This document shows, in pieces, positions 27,539 through 43,769 of a stretch of DNA of 64,000 nucleotides. The notes below the pieces were generated by a model. That model was given only the letters and a program-made list of their open reading frames with translations. It searched no databases and was not told the origin of the DNA. The position numbers and the translations under genes are program-made. The DNA comes from Paracyclopina nana (taxonomy: Eukaryota; Arthropoda; Copepoda; Cyclopoida; Cyclopettidae): NCBI GenBank assembly GCA_019096065.1, contig JAGUCH010000002.1, positions 11,978,501-12,042,500 of the forward strand. The letters are read 5' to 3'. Every line of letters starts with the position of its first letter. The first letter of the stretch is position 1.

Positions 27539-28870
27539 ATGCACAAAAAGGTTTTATCGCTGCTGGCTTTGGCTCTGTTGGGCGCAGCTCGATCCGAAGA
27601 TGTTCTTTGGAACGAAGACAATTGCCAGGGAACCGTGACCGACGCGATCTGCTGCTCTGACCGGCTTTGCGATGACCAGACGCAATTTTCTTGCACCTCT
27701 GATGAGCGAAGGGCCATTTTTTGCGCATGGGACTCGAGTAAGAGCAAGTGCTTGTCCATCAGGGACGCTTCCAACAATGTTTGCTGCCAAACCGAAACCA
27801 AGGCTGGTTGCTCTGATTTGATCAACGGCATTTGTCCCAAGGACTTCCAGGTAATTGCTATCCCCTAATAATTGGATTCTTGATATCGTCATAAGGATTT
27901 TTATTAGGTGCCGGAGAACTGCTGCTCGGAAAATGGCAAAAAGTGGACTCTGTTTTTAAAGGGGATCCAACCAGGCATGGTGTGCTGCAACTCACCCTGT
28001 AAGGAGATGGAGGATAATCAATGCAGTCCTTCGGATTATTGCCTCAAAAAGAAGATTTCCGGTCGGTCATTTGGAGCGCCTACCGTCAATCCGAGGAGTT
28101 TAGGGTTTGCCACCTTGGAATCAAGACAGGTGCCCTATGGCTCCAACTACTTGAATATTTTCAGCAACGACGTCAACAACGCGAATCAGTTCAAGGTACG
28201 GATTTCTTTTATGTTCCAAAATATACTTGATGCTTATTTCGTGCTTCTGTAGGATTTCAAGACGAATGAGGTGACTGTGGATGACATTATCGCCCTGATG
28301 AACGACGCGTTGGCCAATGACCAAGATATTGTCAAAACTGACCAATCTTTGGTGGCTTCTCCTTTTGGCCAGTTCAAGAACTACAACGCCATGCCTTATT
28401 TCGCCAACTACATCAATCCGCAACTGATTGTCAATAAGGCATTCAGTCCTTTCGGTCTGCAAGGATTTCATGGGTATCCCGCTTACAACGGATATAGCCA
28501 ACCTTACGGCCAGTCTTACGGCGGATACGGTCAACAATCGTATGGTGGTTATGGTCAGTCTTATGGTGGCTATGGACAACAGTCTTATGGTGGCTACGGA
28601 CAACAGTCTTATGGTGGCTATGGTCAATCTTATGGTGGCTATGGACAGCAGTACTCCGGATACGGCCAACCTGTTTATGGTCAAGGTTACAGCCAACCTA
28701 ACTATGGTCAATCTGCTTATGGCCAGCCTACCACTCCACCCACCAACTACGGCCAGTCTTCTTATGGGTCGCAGCCTCAGTATGGCCAACAAACAGCCCA
28801 GACTAGCCAACAGTACCGAGCATCTCAAACTGGCTCACAGTCTAGCTCCAAAACGAGCACGAATCAGTAG
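27539..28870 (+). CDS. Secreted cysteine-rich protein with Tyr/Gly/Gln repeat tail
   Basis: No named family recognised. Three exons, 27539-27850, 27908-28195 and 28253-28870, join at phase 0 across two 57-bp introns; 405 residues. A signal peptide ([19 protein letters not shown]) is followed by a cysteine-rich block (about residues 25-150) with several CC pairs, suggesting disulfide-rich whey-acidic or CLIP-like modules, though none is clearly matched. The last exon holds an N-terminal helical stretch and then, from about residue 285, a repeat of Gly-Gly-Tyr-Gly-Gln and Gln-Ser-Tyr units ending in a Ser/Thr/Gln-rich tail. Such compositions occur in cuticle, eggshell, silk and bioadhesive proteins, so a structural extracellular role is plausible but inferred. 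CDS start is the first ATG after an in-frame upstream stretch without ATG. Confidence 0.8.
28500..28680 (+). repeat. Coding minisatellite of SYGGYGQ/Q units
   Basis: Tandem 21- to 24-bp units encode Gln-Ser-Tyr-Gly-Gly-Tyr-Gly-type heptads and octads inside the last exon of the secreted protein. At least six copies are near identical at the DNA level, suggesting recent expansion. Confidence 0.75.
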
Positions 28871-29388: not shown

Positions 29389-32300
29389 ATGGCTAGTGAT
29401 AGCAACGAGCATGATAACCTTTGGAGGTGGTTATCCCACTCTGAAGACTCCATATTCTTACTAGATGGACTCAATAACCTCAAAGATCTACTGGTACCAA
29501 CTGCAGAAGAGTTGCCACCGAGTGAAAGTGCCGATTTTTCGTACAGCTCCCAGAAGGAAGATATTACTCAACTGGAAAATATCATCAAAGGTTAATCACT
29601 TATAAGCTCTCTAATGGCTTAATTGGCACTGAAAGTTGGCAATATTCCAGCGTCGTAAAACCTAATTGTACTTTTTTTAGGGTCCGAGTTACTTGCGCAG
29701 GCTTTTAAAATTGAACATATTATAAGTAGGATGCAAAATTTGCATTAGAAAGTTCAACTAAGCTTAAGATTACACTGAATACCGATATAAATGAATATTT
29801 TTTCCAAGTTTACCAAACGTTGAAAAAATCTTATGATAACACATTGAACGGGTTGTCTAAAACCTGCACCGACCCGCACCGACCCGCACTGATCCGCACC
29901 GACCCGCACTGACCCGCACCAAGCCGCACCGACCCGCACCGACCCGCACTAACCCGCACAAACCGGCACCATACCGCACAAACCAATAGAAAACAAAAAA
30001 GCTTAAAAAAGGTTGCTGCCAGCATGAACTTTTAAGCAAAACTTCAAAAGCAATTTCAAACCCGCACCAAGAAGTAACTTTTTTCAAAGTGGTTACTGCA
30101 AAAGTTAGCTGGTAGCATGACCTTTCTGGCACAAGTGGCCTTTTTGGCCTTTGCAAGAAAAGTTACTGCAGTGGCTGGCCAAGAAAGAGCCATTTCTGCT
30201 CTCCTATGTAGCGAAGCAAAACTACAAGTGCGATTTCAAACCCTCGCCAAGAAGTAACTTTTTTCAAAGTGGTTATTGCAAAAGATAGCTGGTAGCATGA
30301 CCTTTCTGGCACAAGTGGCCTTTTTGGCCTTTGCAAGAAAAGATACTGCAGTGGCTGGCCAAGAAAGAGCCATTTCTTTACTGCAACCTGGGGAAAAAAT
30401 TCCCCAGGTTAATTTTTTCCAAATGTAATTGTTTACATTTTGTTTTTCCCTATTACATGCTAGTCTTGGTAGAGAAATGTACTGAGAAGTTTTTGGTAAT
30501 TGAAACCTAACCTGGGATTTTCGGTTTTTGGTAGAGAAAAAGTTTTGTTCATCTGCTTTGCATTAAGCCTTGTTATGGCACAGCTAAAGTTAACATTGTA
30601 AGTCCAACATTTTGAGGTAGGACTTATGAAGTCCAATCAGCAGTTGGGCCTAGAGATGCCTCAAAGTAATTTTTTGACTCTAATAGTTCCCTACTCCTTC
30701 AGCAAAAGTTAGGCCCCAAGAAAAATCCGAGAGGTCGCGAAAAATTTGAGAACTGAGCTACTATTTTTCATCTGAGCGTAGGATTGAACCCTTTTTTAGT
30801 AAAATATGTCTTATTACCTACCGGTAAACCGTAACCGCAAATCCTGGGTGTGCCTTCAATTTCCAAATGCTTCTCAGCTTTTTCTCATACCAGGGTTTAT
30901 TTTTCCCCGGAAAATAAAGTGTCTCCCGACTCACTATTAAGCTAAAAACGATGCCACTCGATTTACTTCAAAACTAAGCAGCAAAACGTTTGTTGCAGGA
31001 ACCTGGGACTGTGTTGCTTGGGCGCCTCCACCCGCCTTCCTGGTGGAAGTCGCATGTATAAGATGATCAGTAAATACATGGCTATACCCTAGTAAACATC
31101 TCTATGCATTATCTCGTAAGAGCGTTGCTTGTCAGGCTAACAGGGTGTTCAAACTCCCACACTTGCTTAGTACAGCATCGAGTTTTTAGAACGGGATAGT
31201 CTTGGAATTTCAAGCCAACAAGGATTTGCGATTACTGGTAGAGAATAAGACATATTTTACTAAAAAAGAGTTCAATCCGTGAGTTTTCTGGCTATTGCCA
31301 ATTTCAACATATATATCAAGTTTTTTGAGTAAGGACTGGTTCTGGACCCTTTTGGACCCTTTGGACCTAACACATGAGGTCCAAACAGCAGTTGGGCCTA
31401 GAAAAGGTCATGCTTCGCTACATAGGTGAGAAGAAATGGCTCTTTCTGTGCCAGCCACTGCAGTAACTTTTCTTGCAAAGGCCAAAAAGTCCAGTTGTGC
31501 CAGAAAGGTAATGCTACCAGCTATCTTTTACAGTAACCACTTTGAAAAAAGTTACTTCTTGGCGCGGGTTTGAAATTGCACTTTTAGTTTTGCTTCGCTA
31601 CATATTAGATCATAAATGGCTCTTTCTTCGCCACCCACTGCATTAACTTTTCTTGCAAAGGCCAAAAAGGCCACTTGTGCCAGAAAGGTCATGCTACCAG
31701 CTATCTTTTGCAGTAACCACTTTGAAAAAAGTTACTTCTTGGCGCGGGTTTGAAATTGCACTTGAAGTTTGGCTTCGCTACATAGGAGAGCAGAAATGGC
31801 TCTTTCTATGCCTGCCACTGCAGTAACTTTTCTTGCAAAGGCCAAAAAGGCCCCTAGTGCATAAAGGGCATACTACCAACTAACTTTTGCAGTAACCACT
31901 TTAAAAAAAGTTACTTCTTGACGCGGGTTGGAAATTGCACATGAAGTTTGTCTTCGCCACATAGGAGAGCAGAAATGCCTCTTTGTTGGCCAGCCACTGC
32001 AGTCACTTTTCTTGTAAAGGCCAAAAAGGCCACTTGTGCCAGAAAGGTCATGCTGCCAGCTATCTTTTGCAGTAACCACTTTGAAAAAAGTTACTTCTTG
32101 GCGCGGGTTTGAAATTGCACTTGAAGTTTTGCTTCGCTACATGGGAGAGCAGAAATGGCTCTTTCTTGGCCAGCCACTGCAGTAACCACTTTGAAATTTG
32201 AAGTTTAAAGATCATGCTAGCTAGCACCTGACATTTCCACTTTAAGTTATGCATTATTAAATAGTTTTGATAAAACCGCTCTATTCATATCCATTTTTGC

Positions 32301-35300
32301 CTAAAAGCTCTAGCTTGCTACTAATTGAAGTGCTTTATCTGCTTTTAGTTAGCTTCTTATTGTTTTTTTTTTGGTTGGTGTGGTATGGTGCGGGTTGGTG
32401 CGGGTCGGTGCGGCTTGGTGCGGGTTGGTGCGGGTCGGTGCGGCTTGGTGCGGGTTGGTGCGGGTCGGTGCGGGTTGGTGCAGATCGGCGCAGCTTTTAG
32501 ACGCGGCCCACATTGAAGTTTGTAGCCATTACCATGCTATGCAATCGCAAAGTATGATCTGATTTTGCTCTCTTCTTTGGTTACTTAGGTGGGATCCACA
32601 AGACAAATCACAGAGCACATGTGTCCCTGTTTAATTACCGGATGCAAGCATTAAATGGGATTTGGAAAGCAAGAAAAACAGCCAAATACATCACTGATGA
32701 ACTTATTGCTGAGAGAAAAAAGAAAGCTGCAGCAACAAAATCTCCCAAGGGATTTGGAAAGATTGCAAGCGATACTTCAGAATTGACACTGCTTATGTTG
32801 TTTCCTCTGATAGAATCACAAACCAAGATTGATCCAGGCTTGAAGTCATCAATCACTAATTTGCTCTTGGACTATTTCATCAAGGCTCAACCTATGAGCA
32901 TCAAAGGGCCTAATAGTCAGCTTGATGGTATTGAAAATTTGCTCATGCACTGGATTGAACAGGATAAGCAAAGCTTACCAACGATTCAAGCCTTGATTGC
33001 ATTGGCATGCTCAAGAGACTCAATTGATACATTGATAAGAACTGCATTTGCCATAATGAGCCTAGACTTGGATATTCTGGAAATGTCAGAATTACTGACC
33101 AGAGTACTGAAATTTGATTATGAGGACAATGAACCAAAAATTTTGGACGTACATTACCATTTGAGAGGGTTCCATTACAATGCAAAGTAAGTATAAAAAG
33201 CTTTGCCCTGAAATTCTAGCAATTATTTATACCATTACATGAACATACTCTGCGCAAACATTTCGATAATTATCTGTTATTAGTCAACCTTTTTGAACTT
33301 AGGAAAATATCAAATTCAAGAAACAATCAATGTGAATGCAAAGAATTGGTCAGGAGGTCCATCATCCCAACCAAAGAAAAGTACCTCATTGTGTCAAATG
33401 CCACTGGATGTCATTTAACTAAGATAGGAACTGGATATGAAGAAACCATTGCAGGCTTAGTGTACACACAGAGCACATCATGTCTAATGCCTAGCCTGTT
33501 TGCAGAAGTAAATGGTGTGACTATTCAAAGACCATGTGACTTTGACAAAAATGCTGATAGATTTGGTTTCATTCTCACTGATGAGCTTGAAAAGGGCATT
33601 GAGATTGGAGTTCCCGAAGAAATGCAAATTCAATCAAAACTTGTCAAGACTATCTTAATTCAAGGCCAAAACAATTACCTTATCTGGCTGAGACTTGTGT
33701 CAACTGCTGACATGACTGATTTTGTGCCTCAGCTAGGCCAGTTTTTGGTAGTCAGTGATTTGTGTTCATTTAATCCAAAAGGAAATATGTGTTTGAAGAA
33801 TCGAAGAATTTTACTCAAGAATTCTGAGACAGGTGAAACAATTGCAAAAATTCTTAAGTGCCTTAAAATGCCACATATGGGGAGAGACACAAGTAATTGT
33901 TCATTTGATTCACAATCTTCTACATCTTGTGGAGTATCGGCATCAAGCTTACTTGAGAGCCAGATTATGATTGATGAGCAATTTATCACCATTGTGACGC
34001 CAAATCCTGAGACAAGGACAGGAAGCAAATTGGTAAGAACTCTGGGAACTACTTATTCTTTTGACTTGGGTACTGGAATTTTACATTCTCAACACGACTT
34101 ACTGCTTGAAACAACCCTTGCACCTCCTTCTTTGCCGAGAGGATTTTCCATTGCTTCTTCAAGCATTGCATATTGTCCAAAATATCACAGGTTCTGGGCT
34201 TTGGCCTACAACAGAATAGACGAATTTTTGGGAACTCCAGGCTATGAGTCAGGATCATACCTTAAACAAAAGTTGTCTGTTCATTCTCAATTACTTCCTG
34301 AGAGCTCCAGAATGTTAACAATCTCTCAGCTGTTGGAACATGCTGCCATACAGATGATGAAAGCTAATGAACCAACTCAGTTGAAGACTGTTCAATCTCT
34401 TCTTAAAATTGTTATCAGCCTTCAAAACTCCATTCCGCAATTAAGCATACTAGCAGTGCAGATTCTTACAAAGGCTAACATTGGCGAGGAGGACAGGGAT
34501 TATGTCAAAAAACACCTTGACTTAATGCTACAAAATATTGATAAAAATTACGTGGAAATGGTGCTTTGCCTAAGATTTAAGCTGTGCCCTCAGTCCATAT
34601 GTGATCAAATTGAAGAGCTTTTGAATGAAAATATTCCAGATGTAGTAACTCATTCATTAAAGATCCTTTACATCAAGAGTATGATCCACCAATTCCCAGA
34701 AGAAGTTGTTATTGAAGACAAAAGTTGGGCAATGTTCTGTAAATTTTTTGATGAAGAGGTTAAAATATGCTCTGCAGCTTTAAGAGTAAGAAAGAAGCAA
34801 TTGGATTTTTTGATTTATGTCATTAGCTCAATAGGAACCAGAGCATTTCAAGATCCAAACAGGTTTAAAGAGCTCTTCAAGCAAGTTTTTACTATGGCAT
34901 GTAGTGGAAGCATGAGTTGGACTGAAAAGTTAGCAAGTTTAAAGATACTAGACTTGGATAAAATAGAAGCTGTTGTGGAAACTTCACTAATTGGACCTAC
35001 ATATCTAGGATGTCTCCTGAGCTTTGCAAAGCAAGTACAATTGCAAGGCAATGACTTCCTTACATTACTGACAGAGCTTTTCAGTAAAATTGCCAGATTA
35101 ATGTCTGATCTTAACATCCCCCAACTCTTGGACTACAAATTAGAAAACCTCCTGCCTTGGGTGTTCAAAAGAACATTCTCCTCATCTCATCCAATAAGTG
35201 AGGGATACAGGCTGCAAGAAACTATTAAGCTTCCTGGCGCCAAGTGCCTTTTACTTTTATTTGATGAGCATTGTTCAACAACTACTGAGAATGACAAGCT

Positions 35301-38300
35301 TTCCCTATATTCAGGGCCAAGCATGTCTGGCAAGAAAATACTAGAATACAGTGGAAACATCAATTCCTCAAGAAGAATAGGTCAGAAGTCCTGGCCAAGA
35401 AAACCTATATTATTCTATGGTGACTGCATCACCATAGACTTTGAAGTGAAAAGTAAGCAAGATTCAGAAATGAGCTGGGGATGTCACATTTCCATAGCCC
35501 ATTGCCCAGCTGATCTTTTTGAAACTTTTCCTTTGAATTCCTTTGTAAATGCTTTACTGATGCTCACACCATTACTATCATATGAAATAACAAAAGCTTA
35601 TAGAGGGAAACCCATATCCCTCCTAGAACTTCAATGTTCACATTTATTGAGCTCAAAAATTTTACAGAGGTGCAATTGGTCAAAATCAAAGCTTGAGCAG
35701 ATGATACATGTAATGAACAAAACAGATCATGATGACATTTTACCTCCAATATCTCTAATTCCCTCAAAAACAATTTCTACTCTAAGAAGTCTGGCTGGAT
35801 TTGGGCTTCCCCTTATGAGAGAAAGCACAAAGAAGCTTTTACAACCTCATCTCCTAGAGGAAGCAATTGTCTCAGTTGTTATCAAACACATGGGGCTTGA
35901 AGCCACACTGGAGTCTTTTTTGCAAGATCAAGATTCCAGTACTCCTGATGGATGCTTATTGAGTGACATCATGCTTGATGTCTACATGAAAATATCTGTT
36001 TTAATAAGAAAGCTACAATCCATAGTTGAAATGGAAACAAAATGGAATAGTGAGGTGCAAAGCTTCAAAAATGGTCTGATTACGCTAAAGGAAGTTTTTT
36101 TCAATGACTATCTGCATCATGAAGAAAGGGCAAAAGAATTGTCCCTGCTCTTCTTTTTAAAGAAAATTAAGGAGGTTAAGCCTCAGAAAGCCATGCAACA
36201 ATTGAAAAGCATCCTCCAACAAGAGGCCTCTTCCCCAACTTTGAATGATGTCACTCAGTCAACTGTCCTTGTCAAAGGATTGTTTTGCAGGCTAGATTTG
36301 CTTCTTCGGGCTGACATTAACTCCCATAGTGAGAAAAGTAGCATGCCAAACAAAATGTCAATGAGCCTGCAGAATTGGCCCTCAAATCATTCAAACCAAA
36401 TGAAAAGGCAGCAATCCCATGAAGTGGACAGATTTTGGGATGATTCCATTTTAAAAATAGCTAAGTTACAGAGGAGTGTATCAAAACTTAGGCAAAGTAG
36501 ATCTATAATAGAGAGCTTTGATACAGTACCTCTAGACCTAGAGTCAAATCCAGAATCAATAGTATCTGAACTTTTTGCTTTCATTGGTAGCAGTCCTGAA
36601 GACTCTGTGCCAGCAGCCGTATTCTTGGAAGCCATCCTAGAAAGACTGATCAGATGTGAAGGAAGACAAAATGCATTAAAAACAATGAACGCTCTTATGA
36701 AAGCAGTTAGAAATATCCCTCAGTGTCTCAAGTATATTTCATGCACATTTTCTGAAATTTTCTCAATTGGTCTGAGATTCAATGAATTGAAATGTTCAAA
36801 ATCAGTCACAAAACTTGTGTTGAGCTCCTTTTCAGAGTGCCTATATGCATTTGTTGCAACTGTTATTCAAAATCCTGAGGAATATTTCACAACTTTAAGC
36901 TACATTTGCATAACACCCTACAACAAAGAAGAAGAAGAACTCATAGTGCAGAGCGGCCTTCTGGCTCTGCTCAATACTCTTTGCGATGGAGTAGAGAGAA
37001 TGTCCACAAGTTTATCATCTTTGAAAACTATGTCTCAATTAGCATGGTATGGGTTCAAAATTCTGGCCAAGCGTTGTGTTGAATGGGAAAATGTCAATCA
37101 GCGTTCTACAGGCATGGAAAAACAAATCTCAAAGGTTCTCTCTGATCATCTTGCTCAAGCAGCTGAGTGTGGGCATAAATCTGTTGGTCAGGATGCTGTG
37201 TGTGAGTCAATTAAGCTTTTGAAAGATTTGTCATCCACAAAAATGGGAAAGGGTATATTAGCACAACCAGCATGCACAACCAATTTGTTGCATATATTAA
37301 TGGATCAAAATGTCTCACCCCACACTATTTATACAGTTATAGTGTTGCTACAGGAATCATTGCCTTTTATGGCTCAATGCAATCTACCTGATATTTCCTC
37401 AACCAACAATTCTACTCAAGAAAGAAGCATTGTAGATTGTTTACTGATAAGGCTGTCAAAGCTGATTACTCCATCTCTTGAAAATGAATGTGGTCCCACA
37501 GAATTTCCAACTTCACTTTCTTTCGATGTACAAGAATGCCTGAATTATCTGGATGATGGAACACAGCAAGCTTTACTGGTTCATAAGAGAGTAGATCAAA
37601 GTGGACATGAGTTAATTCAACAATTGCTGAATGCAAGCTCAGATATTGGGCTCTTTTCAGCCATAGGAAGTGACAGTATGGAAAAGATAATTCGTATAGA
37701 CAAAGACATTAATCAAAAAAATATAGCTGAGGTAATGATTGGTGATGCTACTAAAGTACTAAGAGCTGCAACAAAAATGGCCCAACTTGGGTTTGTTGTC
37801 TCTATATCATCACCAAATGAATTTCATGAAAGTTCAAATGAATGGAGACATAGAGCCACTCAAATATGCAGCCAGAGGAATACTGCAGTGGCTCAAAATC
37901 ACCCAATGAGGCCATTTATAAGCAGCAATGTTGCAAATAAGCTTTCAACTGAAATAATAATTTTGTTGCAAAGATTGGTTCACTCTGAAAACTCAGAAAA
38001 TTGGATGGTTGCATTACAGGCAGCTACTGATGAATCTTTTGGCCAGATACCAACTTTTCTTCATAATTTGCATAAATTATCAAATGACAACTTTTTTGAC
38101 CAAAATATGTTTGAATCAGGTCAAAGAATAGCTGCTGCTCTTGCAGTCTTTGGTGGATTTTATGAAACTATTAAGGTAGGTTCTAATGTTGTTCTAAAGA
38201 GCCTATCTGAAGAATCAAATGTGAGTGATGGGCTTGTTAAGCACATTTACAAGGATATAGGCTGTTTATCTATTTCTGTCAATTCTGGATCTGTTGAAGA

Positions 38301-41300
38301 CACGGTTGATCTAACAATACCAATCAATCAAGTTAAGCTAGAAGAGCTAGTTCAAGAAACATCTCAATCACTCTTTTCATCAGTTGTTAGAAATCATATT
38401 AGCATTATTCAATTGCTTCTCATTCCATCAGACGAAGGTCTGATCGAGCCATTGTCTGTACCCTTACCTGCATCATCGGAAAACAAAAGTGTGTTGGCAT
38501 TAAGCAGATTGGCAGTGGAAATTAGAACTAGATGTTGTCAACTGCTGGCATTACACATGAAAGATTATGAGTTTGCCAAAGCCTTCCTTGAACAGTCCTG
38601 TCAATCAGTCGATATGCTGAAATATTTCTCAAAGGAAGTTTTACCTTCCGACAAACTATGCTGCACTGAATTTGTGTGTGAAAACCTCCGCTGCCAATTC
38701 AAAGACCAAACTAAACCATGTGCTCTTAGTTTACCACTCAATTTGAATTCAAAGCAACTTCCAAATCATTGGAACACAATCCAAGCATTCCCCCCTCTAA
38801 AATCTGTCATTTTTACTCATTACAAAACTGCAGTTACATACCTAGGTACACCAATTACCTCTATAGGTCTTCCAAGAGGAGTGCTGTTACAAGCCACAAA
38901 ACCATTGACTCTTCCTAATGAAAGTCAGCAAGTCACTCTTAGTATTCTGTCATTGGGCCAAGGAGCAGATGAGTCTGGTGCACCAACAATTTCAATTGGA
39001 CTAAGCTTTCAAGGGCTGAAAAAAGATGGTGTTTGGAATCATGCTGAAGGTGCTCTCATGTTGCACAGTAATGGAAGAATAGTGCACTACAAGGGGTCCA
39101 ACTTACTTTCCTGGCACTCTTCACACATAGATCATCTACTTAGTCCTGGGGATGAAGTTACTTTGAAATGGATGCCTAGTGACAACAGTGCTGGAACAGT
39201 TATTTTTGAAGTCAATCATCAGCAAGTTGGAGATGAGTTTGTTGACATGCCTAGTGGACTTTTTCCCACTGTACACATTCAGCAAAATGGTGTGAGGGTT
39301 AAGGCAACATTTTCAGATGTAAAAGAAAGCCTTTCTCTAGCATCTCAAGAAGACACAGTTAACTATTCAAAAGGAAATGAAAAATTAAGCCTGACTAGGG
39401 TCAGTGGTGGTCATAGGAGACAATGTACTCAAACAAATAGGCAAGCAGTCAGAATGAAACCAAGTGATGCATACAATTCTGATCATACTGGATCATTTTA
39501 CAAGCTATCCCTAAACGGCTATGCAAAATTGTCTACTGGTTGTATTCCATCATTCAAACTGGATGAGAATTGGCTTGAAGAAGATGATGAAGAGGAAGAT
39601 AGTGATTACTTTGAGGAAGAGAGATTAGATGACATTAATTTATTGCTAGTCAGATCATGGGAGGAAAAGGTATTTCCAGCTATAAGAAGGAGATTTAGAA
39701 ATGAAAGTGAAAGAAGAGATGGTTTAGATCAAATCAAGGGGGCATTGTCTCTTGGTATGATAGACATAGCCAAGCAAACTGTTGAGTTCTTGTATGAAGA
39801 AAATGGAGGTCTCCCAATTGATTTGAAGCTGCCTGATATAGATGATGTTAAAAAAGATCTCATGTCTCTGTCAGTGGAAAAGTTAAGGCCAAGGATGATT
39901 GTGCACATATGTGAGCAGAATCTGCAGCCATTATTTGCCTGTAAAGAGCAAATCAAGACTTTTGGCCTGGAAGGAGAAGTCATAAGAACAGATGTGCCAA
40001 ATGAGCTTGCAGAGGTGGAAACATATTTAGAAGAGGATGGAATGGTGGTAAGGTATTGGTACCCTGTGGACTCACTGAAAAAGACCTCCAATGACAAGCA
40101 GTGTGCACATTCAAGAAAATCCTCCAATTCAAGTTCAATTGCCCAGTTAGAGTTATTCAATTGTGAGTTCATTCTGTCCCGGCTATACTGCAGAGAAGCT
40201 TACCTACAACTTCTTAAGTGGGCTTGTGATGACAACTGCAGACTAACATCATCTACAATGCTCACTTCATCTCCAGAGAGACAAGCCACCTTAACATCTA
40301 ATGTATTTCTATTACAAGAGTGGGATCTGGAAAATCTTCTATATATCCTGGATTGTAAAACCATGAGTTGCCATGGGTCATTGGCTGAATTTGGTAGCCC
40401 AATGAATTCCCCAGAACAATCAATCAAGCAAATTTCTCCCAAGCTTACTGAAATGGTTCTTCATATGAACTACAACCTAGTGCTTGACACTTTTGCAAAT
40501 ATTTTTGAAAGAATGCAATCAACCAACCCAGTTCTTGCTGGAGAATTAGTAACAGAGATAATTCAGGGATTTAGAGAGCTTGATGCATATATTCCACATG
40601 AAAATATCCACATAAATGACATTTCACTTTTGTCATCATCCATCTATTTTCCAAATTCTTCGTGTGTCCTAGCAGCTTTTAAATTTGGACAGAAGCATGC
40701 ATTACATCCTCCTGAAGATCTGAAAGTTTTGATTCAGCCAATGGAGTTTAGCACCAAGCATAAGGAGTGCCAACATACCATCAACAATCCCACAAAATTT
40801 CCTTCACAGATAAAAGGAGGAAAAAATAGAGCTGTTAGGGCATTTCCCACAGTCCTGTTTTCATCTAATGTCTTAAAAGTTTGCCATGGAGGTGCAGCAG
40901 ACTCTTATTGTCAACTTCAGCTGGTTGGTATACCTAATACTGTCCTTCTAGCCTTAACTTTTGTAGACTTGATGATATACCACCACTCAATAGAAGTTTT
41001 CAAGCCTTCAATTTACATGGATTGCCTTGAGCTCTTAGCCTCATTTTCATTGAAATTTGATATTACTCCATGGGGCAAGATATGCTTTTTCTATTCCATT
41101 TCTCACCTACTTCAATTTATGAAGGATAATGCCCTCAAGATCCAAACAAAGTCAACAGAAATACTGTTAGACAAACTTTTGATAGAGTTTGAAACTCTTG
41201 AGGAAATAGGAACCCATAGTTTAGGTCATCATCAGATAAAGCCATCCTATGTGCAAGCCCTGGCTGAGTTATGCTACCAGCTTCACCCAATTGCTCAATT

Positions 41301-43769
41301 TATGGCTTTAGACTTACCCAAAGCACTTGCTAAAGTAACAGCTACAATGGCTGCACTTCACACGCTTAAAAATCAGCATGAACTTCCCAAAAGTGTGATG
41401 CAATCAATTCCAGTAGTTGAGCAGCCTACCTTTGGATCAAGATATTTGGTATTGACAGGTATACCTAAGCTTCTGTCATCACTTGAGGTGGCATCAGCTC
41501 TTAAAGCAGCTTTAAATTGCCTTTGTGGTCTTCAAGTTATTGAAGTGTACATCACATCCAACTTAAGCCAAGATGTTTGCTCAGGATCTGCAGTTGTTCA
41601 AATTCAAGCTTGCTCCATGCAAGAAGATGCAAAAGTTGTGATGTCAAAAATTCCTGCATTCCACCAGACAAGCAGCTTTGATATACATCATGAAACTGGA
41701 ACTGTGATCCCTTTAACAGTGAGTAAAGTGAGGATGGATCTTCAATGTGAGGAGAGCACATTAAGCAATATTTGGATTGAATTCATAAAATCTAAATTGA
41801 TTGTTTCATCTGGGAAATTGAAAGCAGAAGTAGCTAGCACAGTTAAGAAGATATTTGAGTCAAGTGTAAGGGATTTATCAAAAGAGTCCTTAAAGTTTTC
41901 TGATTTGCTTTTGAAGAAGAAGAGTCCCTTTCTTTCTTTTCTGAATGGAATAAAGGGAAGACCACTGAGTGACATTAGAGATGATTTGAGAGAATATTTT
42001 TCATTATCAAAGGTATATTTGATAGCTATGATGCCAACAACATCTTTTTTTATTCCATGCACTTCTGATAGGACAATGATGATAAACTAACCATTGATTC
42101 TGTGTGGGATCTGGTTGAGAAATTGGCAAAAGAAGAAACTATTTCTTTGCTAAGGGCCTTCCAAGTATGTGGTTATGACCTGGATATGAAGTTCATGGGC
42201 TCTATAAGCAATGCAGAAGACTCTTACACTAGCTGGAGCATTGATGAAGATATTGCTTTGGTAGAGTTCTTAAATCAGTGGTGTGACAATTTCAATCAAC
42301 CCTTCCAAGATATACAGCCAAATGAATTTAGATGGGATTATTGCAATATGAAAGCATCAAGTAAGTCAAAACTGTGTGAAAAGCAAGATGCTGATGTAAG
42401 GTCCAGGATTTGCCTACTAAAAGGAATGAACTATATGGTGGCTAATGATGTTGCTCCATTAGTGAATTTTGACTCTTCTAATGGTCTTTCAAAAGAGCTA
42501 TGTGGCATGAAAAAGATTTTTTTTTCATCATGGAAGAATCAAATGCTTACTTCTATGATCAATTTGACAAATGAAAGAAATGACGACCAGCCTGGAATCA
42601 CCGTAATTCTTGATCCTTTGGAAAACATTGACAGAGGAGGTGATAATTTAAGCTCTACTTGGTTCTTTCAATCATATAAAGTAGTTTCACAAGTACCATC
42701 AAGCTCTCTATGTTCATCTTCTCCTCAATGTGATGATCCACAGTTTCCTCTTGTTATTAAATTGGCTGGAGAAGAGGTTCAAGGAAACAGTGGATCTTTT
42801 AGGCAATTTCTTGCCAAAATTGTAGATGAACTCCAAAGCACTTCAGTGCCTATTTTAATGCCATATATGGGAAATGGTTCTTACAAAGGCATGTACATGC
42901 TTAGACCAGGACCTCTCACTATTCTTGATGAGCAATTGCTGATGTACTTTGGCCAATTGCTTGGAATTGCTGTTAGATCTGGAATACCATTACCTCTTGG
43001 ACTAATCCCTCAGTTTTGGAAGTCCCTCGTTGATGAGCCCATAGATGATCAAGACCTTTTTTGCTTTGATCCCAATTTATACAAGTACATTCAAGACCTG
43101 CTAAGTTTCTCAAGCTCAGAAGCATTTGACATCTTTTTAGATAACCAACAACACCCATCTTTTATGATTCAAGAAGTCTCAGGAGCTAAAACTGAGCTCA
43201 TGAAAGGAGGAGAAAAAGTTATGGTGACTTTTACTAACAGGCTGCAGTACATAGATCTGATCAAATCCTTTAAGAAAAAAGAATTGGAGTGCAAAGAAAA
43301 AGTCAATTGTATCATGGCAGGTATGTGCACTATTCTGCCAATGGGTATTATCAGAAGTCTCTTTACTTGGGAGGAGGTTCAACTTAGAATTTGTGGCTCA
43401 GATGGAATCAACCTCAACCTCTTAAAGAAATGCACTATTTACCAAGTTGGTATAAGCGAAGAAGACCACCACATCCAAAACTTTTGGTCTGTCATTTCAT
43501 CCCTGAATCCATTTCACCTCAAACTATTTCTAAAATTTGCTTGCAATCAAGAGAGATTACCTAAGCCCCAAGACTGTAATAACCTGCCACCCCCATACCC
43601 CATGAAAATTGCTCCAGCAGATGCTAGAGAAGAAATACAGGACAATTTACTAATCAGGGCAGAAACATGCATATTCATGGTAAAAATTCCAAGATACTCC
43701 AACATAGATGTAATGAGAGAAAAATTGTTGTACTCAATCCAATCTGCTGAAGATCCTTTGAGTGGGTGA
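29389..43769 (+). CDS. HECTD4: HECTD4-type giant HECT E3 ubiquitin ligase
   Basis: Predicted E3 ubiquitin ligase that takes ubiquitin from an E2 onto its catalytic cysteine; substrates unknown. Four exons join in phase: 29389-29590, 32589-33186, 33303-42012, 42072-43769; about 3735 residues (human about 4000). A beta-rich segment at about residues 906-1000 is followed by long helical scaffold regions. A SPRY domain lies at about 2140-2270 (SIGLSFQGLKKDGVWNHAEG, GDEVTLKW, FEVNHQQVG), then an acidic loop EEDDEEEDSDYFEEE. The HECT domain is at about 3390-3735, with VQGNSGSFRQFLAKI and the catalytic Cys at codon 43668-43670 in LLIRAETCIFMVKI. The start is the first ATG after an in-frame GTG. Intron 1 (2998 bp) carries a transposon; the other two are 116 and 59 bp. 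Exon 3 is a single 8710-bp exon. Confidence 0.88.
29840..29848. repeat. Left target-site duplication CACATTGAA
   Basis: Nine bases identical to 32509-32517, directly abutting the aligned left terminus of the foldback element. Confidence 0.8.
29861..29984. repeat. Left-arm 10-bp tandem array (ACCGACCCGC type), 12 units
   Basis: Twelve consecutive 10-bp units vary mainly at positions 2-5 of the unit (GACCC, GATCC, AAGCC, AACCC, ATACC). It is the reverse complement of the array at 32371-32490. Open frames reading Val-Arg-Val-Gly-Ala here are artefacts of the repeat. Confidence 0.85.
29985..30380. repeat. Left-arm ~180-bp repeat units (about two copies)
   Basis: The phrase AAGAAGTAACTTTTTTCAAA recurs at exactly 180-bp spacing (about 30070 and 30250). 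Each unit runs through GGTAGCATGACCTTTCTGGC and ends near AAGAAAGAGCCATTTCT. The first unit is incomplete at its outer side. Confidence 0.85.
30385..30410. repeat. 11-bp perfect palindrome with 4-base loop
   Basis: AACCTGGGGAA, AAAA, TTCCCCAGGTT: a perfect hairpin at the inner edge of the left arm. It may mark the junction between arm and centre. Confidence 0.7.
30782..31279. repeat. Inner inverted repeat nested in the element's centre
   Basis: Bases about 30782-30865 and 31203-31279 are imperfect reverse complements; for example ATTTTACTAAAAAAG is shared, with further matches through a GGATTTGCG block. About 340 bp separate them. A direct repeat containing CAGCAGTTGGGCCTAGA flanks this unit at about 30642-30658 and 31384-31400. 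This looks like a second, older palindromic insertion or a folded core. Confidence 0.65.
31400..32200. repeat. Right-arm ~180-bp repeat units (about four and a half copies)
   Basis: The inverted form of the left-arm unit: GTTACTTCTTGGCGCGGGTT recurs near 31550, 31730, 31909 and 32089, spacing 179-180 bp. Each unit carries GCTTCGCTACAT and a GGCTCTTTCT stretch. The last copy is truncated near 32190. Confidence 0.85.
32371..32490. repeat. Right-arm 10-bp tandem array, 12 units with 30-bp higher-order period
   Basis: Twelve 10-bp units of GCGGGTTGGT type. The centre repeats a three-unit block (CGGGTTGGTG, CGGGTCGGTG, CGGCTTGGTG), so a 30-bp superunit has been amplified. It has the same unit count as the left array. 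Confidence 0.85.
32509..32517. repeat. Right target-site duplication CACATTGAA
   Basis: Nine bases identical to 29840-29848, abutting the right terminus. Removing the element plus one copy restores an ordinary intron of about 330 bp. Confidence 0.8.

Follow-up and report, generated by a model that had tools for sequence, protein, structure and literature searches.

A foldback transposon family with inverted arms of 10-bp and 180-bp tandem repeats, one copy of which occupies an intron of a HECT-domain gene

Results

Host gene and window copy

The window, that is, the whole 64,000-bp stretch of DNA analyzed here (C2:11978501-12042500), belongs to a genome of 91.95 Mb in 10 contigs. Upstream of the element described below sits a gene with a CPSF_A domain (Pfam), and downstream of it lie very long open reading frames (ORFs), the last of which carries a HECT domain (PF00632, E=2e-48) and has HECTD3 as its best solved relative. 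The first-pass annotation had called the host gene HECTD4; the HECT-domain part of this claim is borne out by the profile match, and the name itself is plausible for a gene of this length with such a domain. The first exon (29389-29590) and the exon starting at 32589 form one continuous reading frame, the split codon being judged by eye, and therefore the intron between them runs from 29591 to 32588 (2,998 bp). Within it, an element of 2,660 bp (29849-32508) lies between perfect 9-bp copies of CACATTGAA. The features of this region are as follows:

29591-32588, plus strand: intron of the HECT-domain gene, which holds the element (GT...AG; continuity of the exon frame)
29840-29848, no strand: left copy of the target duplication, 9 bp, CACATTGAA, identical to the right copy
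29849-29864, plus strand: left tip CGGGTTGT followed by CTAAAAC (left-end pattern, 0 mismatches)
29861-29984, plus strand: left 10-bp repeat array, 12.4 copies, consensus AACCCGCACC, 0% indels, strict register
30034-30378, minus strand: left arm, 1.9 copies of the 180-bp unit, inverted relative to the right arm
30379-31410, no strand: core of about 1 kb, non-coding, parts of which recur in other copies at 93-96% identity
31411-32186, plus strand: right arm, 4.3 copies of the 180-bp unit, inverted relative to the left arm
32373-32491, minus strand: right 10-bp array, about 11 copies (10.9), inverted relative to the left array
32492-32508, minus strand: right tip, read on the minus strand as GGCCGCGT followed by CTAAAAG (right-end pattern, 0 mismatches)
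32509-32517, no strand: right copy of the target duplication, 9 bp, CACATTGAA, identical to the left copy

From each end inward, an 8-bp tip is followed by CTAAAA, the 10-bp array, a linker and the 180-bp units, with the core between the two arms. The 8-bp tips are unlike each other (CGGGTTGT on the left, GGCCGCGT on the right), and CTAAAA is common to both ends. The terminal arms (29855-30001 and 32356-32502) align without gaps over 147 nt at 82% complementarity, and the longest inverted pair in the 180-bp arms spans 345 nt at 93% complementarity. No ORF of at least 100 aa was found outside the 180-bp units of the window copy, and an Rfam search of 29800-32600, up to E=1, gave no match. The earlier description of a foldback element with a perfect 9-bp duplication was thereby confirmed to the base, together with its ends as ungapped inverted repeats, its arms combining a 12-unit 10-bp array with inverted units of about 180 bp, and its non-coding center. 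Moreover, once the element and the second target copy are subtracted, the intron measures 329 bp, in agreement with the empty length of about 330 bp that had been predicted.

Copies in the genome and their target sites

Searches with the two tips, allowing up to 3 mismatches, returned 34 left and 33 right ends genome-wide, compared with 0 in the reversed controls. Pairing of these ends gives 28 elements, between 509 and 15,488 bp in length, with 6 left and 5 right ends remaining single. The target duplication was scored in 27 pairs, since one of the 28 paired elements is without a flank and one row of alternative pairing was left out; it is exact over 9 bp in 20 pairs and over 10 bp in one, and the six pairs without an exact duplication match at 7, 7, 5, 4, 3, and 1 of 9 bases. 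When flanks were combined in mismatched fashion, a mean of 2.9 of 9 bases matched, and a 9/9 match appeared in 1 of 756 combinations, which proved to be an element set against an alternative row of itself. Chance is excluded as the source of the duplication because 9/9 matches occur in 20 of the 27 true flank pairs, against that one mismatched combination. The target sites share an AT-rich middle and no fixed sequence. We regard the smallest pair (C4:8183091-8183599) as doubtful; its duplication is poor.

The further copies anticipated from the window element therefore exist, with the same boundaries and different 9-bp duplications, and they display the features of the foldback class, namely long inverted arms of tandem repeats in a discrete mobile unit with a target duplication. 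Empty sites and array spacing were analyzed in the 16 elements with both ends within the sequence retrieved, and uninterrupted empty sites were recovered for two of these, both in neighboring tandem repeats. The element at C1:8353375-8360730 is inserted in an array of 191-bp period; when its flanks are joined over a single target copy, they agree with two neighboring units at 180 of 180 bases. The right-hand duplication copy of this element now has two differences. The element at C4:9377422-9380812 adjoins related repeats, one of which spans the junction with a single CAAAAAACG (160/177). A weak third match, for C6:828258 (79% over 76 bases), was left out of the count. As expected of an insertion, the target is present once in both of these paralogous empty sites, which demonstrates that elements insert whole, with duplication of 9 bp. 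The other 14 of the 16 elements say nothing against insertion, since most flanks are not repetitive. The element thus inserts as one discrete unit whose ends are fixed and unlike, duplicating 9 bp of target.

Arms and local growth

The arms are inverted arrays of 10-bp and 180-bp repeats whose length is very different among copies. All 32 arms (16 elements) have their first 10-bp repeat at a distance of 17 bases from the tip, and 328 of the 329 steps within the arrays of these arms are multiples of 10 bp, distances past the end of each array having been removed by eye before the spacing analysis. The 180-bp unit accounts for 112,552 of the 145,097 element bases read (78%, with overlapping loci counted twice), a sample drawn from 21 of the 28 elements, some of them partial. 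One copy, 15.5 kb long, contains 76 full units.

Such an abundance of the unit, the most conserved 22-mer of which has 729 occurrences genome-wide with up to 1 mismatch, might suggest an ordinary dispersed satellite whose inverted array junctions give the look of a foldback element. We find this explanation barely credible, since it is contradicted by the fixed, unlike tips, the exact duplications in 21 of 27 pairs and the empty sites. Furthermore, among the matches listed (100 places), 98 sites of the 22-mer fall in paired elements, C1:10039870 and C1:10040470 being the two outside them. All 587 full units extracted also fall in element intervals (matches covering fewer than 165 bases were excluded; two intervals are single-tipped and were bounded by hand), a figure that is biased because the loci were chosen around elements.

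Units share a mean identity of 0.951 with others in their arm and of 0.950 with those in the opposite arm of the same element, compared with 0.9385 for units of different elements. The nearest relatives include a unit of the same arm for 319 of the 587 units, vs. 4.3% expected, and for 234 units they occur only in other elements. Taken with the identity levels, the share of same-arm relatives indicates local growth of the arrays, superimposed on shared ancestry. A 359-bp double unit suggested by TRF found no support, as the similarity of every second unit barely exceeds that of neighbors (0.956 vs. 0.954). Finally, the consensus 180-bp unit contains TTGGCGCGGGTTTG, which is like the 10-bp array at 12 of 14 positions and has the same orientation towards the tip; this likeness was equaled by 1 of 500 shuffles.

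Search for a transposase

ORFs and transposases were surveyed in 21 of the 28 elements, several of them incompletely, the parts outside the survey including nearly all of C1:14358581-14365680 and C4:8489712-8495575 and the outer parts of two C6 elements. In the parts read, no transposase belonging to the family was found, and no PHD-finger transposase was seen among the ORFs between the ends. The remaining long frames within elements proved to be translated minisatellites in C9:4277991-4289758 and short frames, none of them with a Pfam transposase match; one such repeat frame scored above the cut-off for PF07382 and PF24158, matches that we attribute to low complexity. Profile searches of the genome gave 0 matches for IS1595/Merlin (PF12762), with a control that matched in one named genome, and 0 for hAT (PF05699), a search that proves nothing because its control gave no match either. 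The first-pass annotation had proposed to look for a MULE, P or hAT transposase within the same ends; the first two domains are indeed present in the genome, with 5 matches for MULE (PF10551) and 11 for the P type (PF21787, whose control matched in 0 named genomes), and none of either set lies in the paired elements.

One copy, C1:10001507-10010406, has the family tips and a few 180-bp units and contains a 378-aa ORF with zinc-finger-like cysteines. We first favored this ORF as the family's own transposase, of an unrecognized kind, as it is intact, lies between a left and a right tip of the family, occurs at full length once in the genome, and has no Pfam match. However, it is enclosed by 259-bp inverted repeats (96.5% identical) flanked by the 4-bp ATGA, as judged by eye, and no duplication of at least 6 bp was found around these repeats. 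A second repeat family, with inverted 24-28-bp arms and 113 matches in the genome, surrounds the whole; in addition, the first residues of the ORF match a repeat found elsewhere, and its frame breaks after 378 aa. Because of this nesting, the ORF was not counted as the transposase of the family, and we keep it as a rival that seems quite improbable.

P-type elements generate target duplications of 7-8 bp, which are shorter than the 9 bp observed in 20 of 27 pairs. This difference, together with the location of all 11 P-type fragments away from the paired elements, makes it unlikely that the same passenger elements are moved by a P-type transposase, as is the foldback-like Galileo of Drosophila, where a THAP domain binds the sites of the tandem arms. 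In favor of a P-type mover are the presence of those fragments in the genome and the arms of Galileo, described in the part of the report available to us as long, internally repeated, and provided with several transposase binding sites (PMC3688188).

For MULEs, the accessible part of one paper gives target duplications of 8-11 bp (PMC6446971), a range that includes the 9 bp of 20 and the 10 bp of 1 of our 27 pairs. Among the MULE matches, that at C5:6359976, which comes with a RING-like finger just under the Pfam cut-off, is bordered by short tandem repeats in inverted orientation, has unlike tips, and shows a duplication of 10 bp, CATCAGTATG. At C2:6668156, the inverted arms measure 99 nt (75% complementary) and the duplication, GCTGCTAG, 8 bp; the outer 11 bases are unlike, followed by CTAAAC at both ends. 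The tips of these two elements resemble those of the foldback family in plan and little in sequence, and the other three matches had no clear ends in the stretches examined. The Mutator-like assignment made at the outset is upheld in part: since no MULE gene lies between these ends in the parts read, membership rests on duplication length and shared architecture.

Discussion

In brief, our data point to a non-autonomous foldback family that is probably moved by a MULE-type transposase acting in trans, with the tips and arrays as its putative sites, arms that grow locally, and the window copy as a passenger of an intron. The superfamily of this transposase is most likely Mutator (MULE), as we infer from the length of the duplications and the build of the ends. 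In the mechanism proposed, the trans-supplied enzyme, most likely a MULE, would cleave at the two tips, the 10-bp arrays would offer putative transposase binding sites on one face of the helix, and each 180-bp unit would add one more site-like motif. The 180-bp arrays may lengthen or shorten locally by unequal exchange or slippage, and such local lengthening would give rise to elements of up to 15 kb in which the tips and the duplication are preserved. The window copy would ride in its intron and presumably be spliced out.

A more speculative extension, which we advance tentatively, is that the 10-bp array acts as a helix-phased docking rail, presenting about a dozen putative transposase sites from 17 bases inside each of the unlike tips, and that each 180-bp unit adds a similarly oriented site. 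Selection for capture of the transposase could then drive the growth of a satellite of nucleosome length, seeding arrays at landing sites. The origin of satellite DNA is an open question, for which transposon arms are one proposed source. Here, stages of such a process may be compared in one genome, from copies with a handful of 180-bp units to one with 76, with tips kept throughout, duplications mostly exact, and empty sites. Transposase binding and satellite growth are linked in a testable way by the 10-bp register together with the array-like motif of the 180-bp unit, and if the docking rail were true, the family would seed new satellite arrays at every site of insertion.

FB of Drosophila melanogaster also has foldback arms built from short tandem repeats, and Phantom, a group of MULEs, makes 9-bp duplications; the likeness of the present family to both is one of general description, not of sequence. 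Phantom is also named in the available text on Tm1 (PMC3169594), and the MULEs of arthropods were surveyed in 2026, according to the part of that work at hand (PMC13359780). A word-based literature search recognized no paper describing this family, and because it used words and not sequence, a database entry may exist. We classify it as a new family within a known kind of element, a placement based on description.

The nearest published relatives, set beside it by description and as far as the accessible parts of the papers go, are Tetris, Tm1, and Galileo. Tetris/DAIBAM of Drosophila virilis is likewise a foldback element with 8-10-bp duplications, a non-coding middle, and a transposase that was not found, and the tandem repeats of about 220 bp in its arms grow into satellite arrays (PMC4079207). 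Its repeats differ in length and sequence, the two being likened by description, whereas the present family places a separate 10-bp array between the tip and the long repeat and retains exact duplications around elements of up to 15.5 kb. Galileo, whose repeated arms are similar in kind, differs in its P superfamily transposase (PMC3688188). Rehavkus shares the 9-bp duplications and has a minisatellite before its 3' inverted repeat, but it is defined, in the portion of the source available, by a PHD-finger transposase, which was not found in the parts read of the present family, and the repeats of the latter occur in both arms (PMC6446971). Tm1 of root-knot nematodes also has unlike outer motifs (7 bp), short tandem repeats, 9-bp duplications, and a majority of non-autonomous copies; it differs in repeats of 13-15 bp and in a known copy with a Phantom/MULE transposase, and the available portion of its description mentions no 180-bp satellite (PMC3169594). 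In these terms, the present family is a Tm1-like end joined to a Tetris-like arm.

Nested repeats and neighbouring genes

Inside C1:10001507-10010406, a nested copy of the main foldback family, we observed a second foldback-like repeat family, distinct from the main one and with inverted arms of 24-28-bp repeats, for which a genome-wide search returned 113 matches, including six near-equal ones, all on contig C5 at 7.01-7.35 Mb. The same copy harbored an element whose 259-bp inverted repeats were 96.5% identical to each other, with ATGA read by eye as a 4-bp duplication; its ORF was zinc-finger-like, without a match in Pfam, and a decayed relative was identified at C9:4940585.

Features (L numbers denote contig stretches)
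L040:720-1260 and L037:4800-5180: second foldback-like family, repeat arms
about C1:10002809-10008937 (spanning L040 and L037): element with inverted repeats and 378-aa ORF
about C5:6359712-6361861 (L031 and L036): Mutator-type (MULE) transposase gene with RING-like finger

Another minisatellite (L022:6341-7414) was contained in the main-family copy at C9:4277991-4289758, presenting long open frames in several reading frames, one of which passed the cut-off set in Pfam for a histone H1-like family, a match that composition probably explains.

In the window, an uninterrupted ORF of 2,914 aa (33346-42090), for which Pfam gave no match, was located upstream of the HECT domain. Furthermore, the gene directly upstream of the foldback element carried a tandem repeat within its coding sequence (28505-28652; period about 24-69 bp), encoding a stretch rich in tyrosine, glycine, and glutamine.

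Tandem repeats in inverted orientation flanked the C5 MULE gene, together with a 10-bp duplication.
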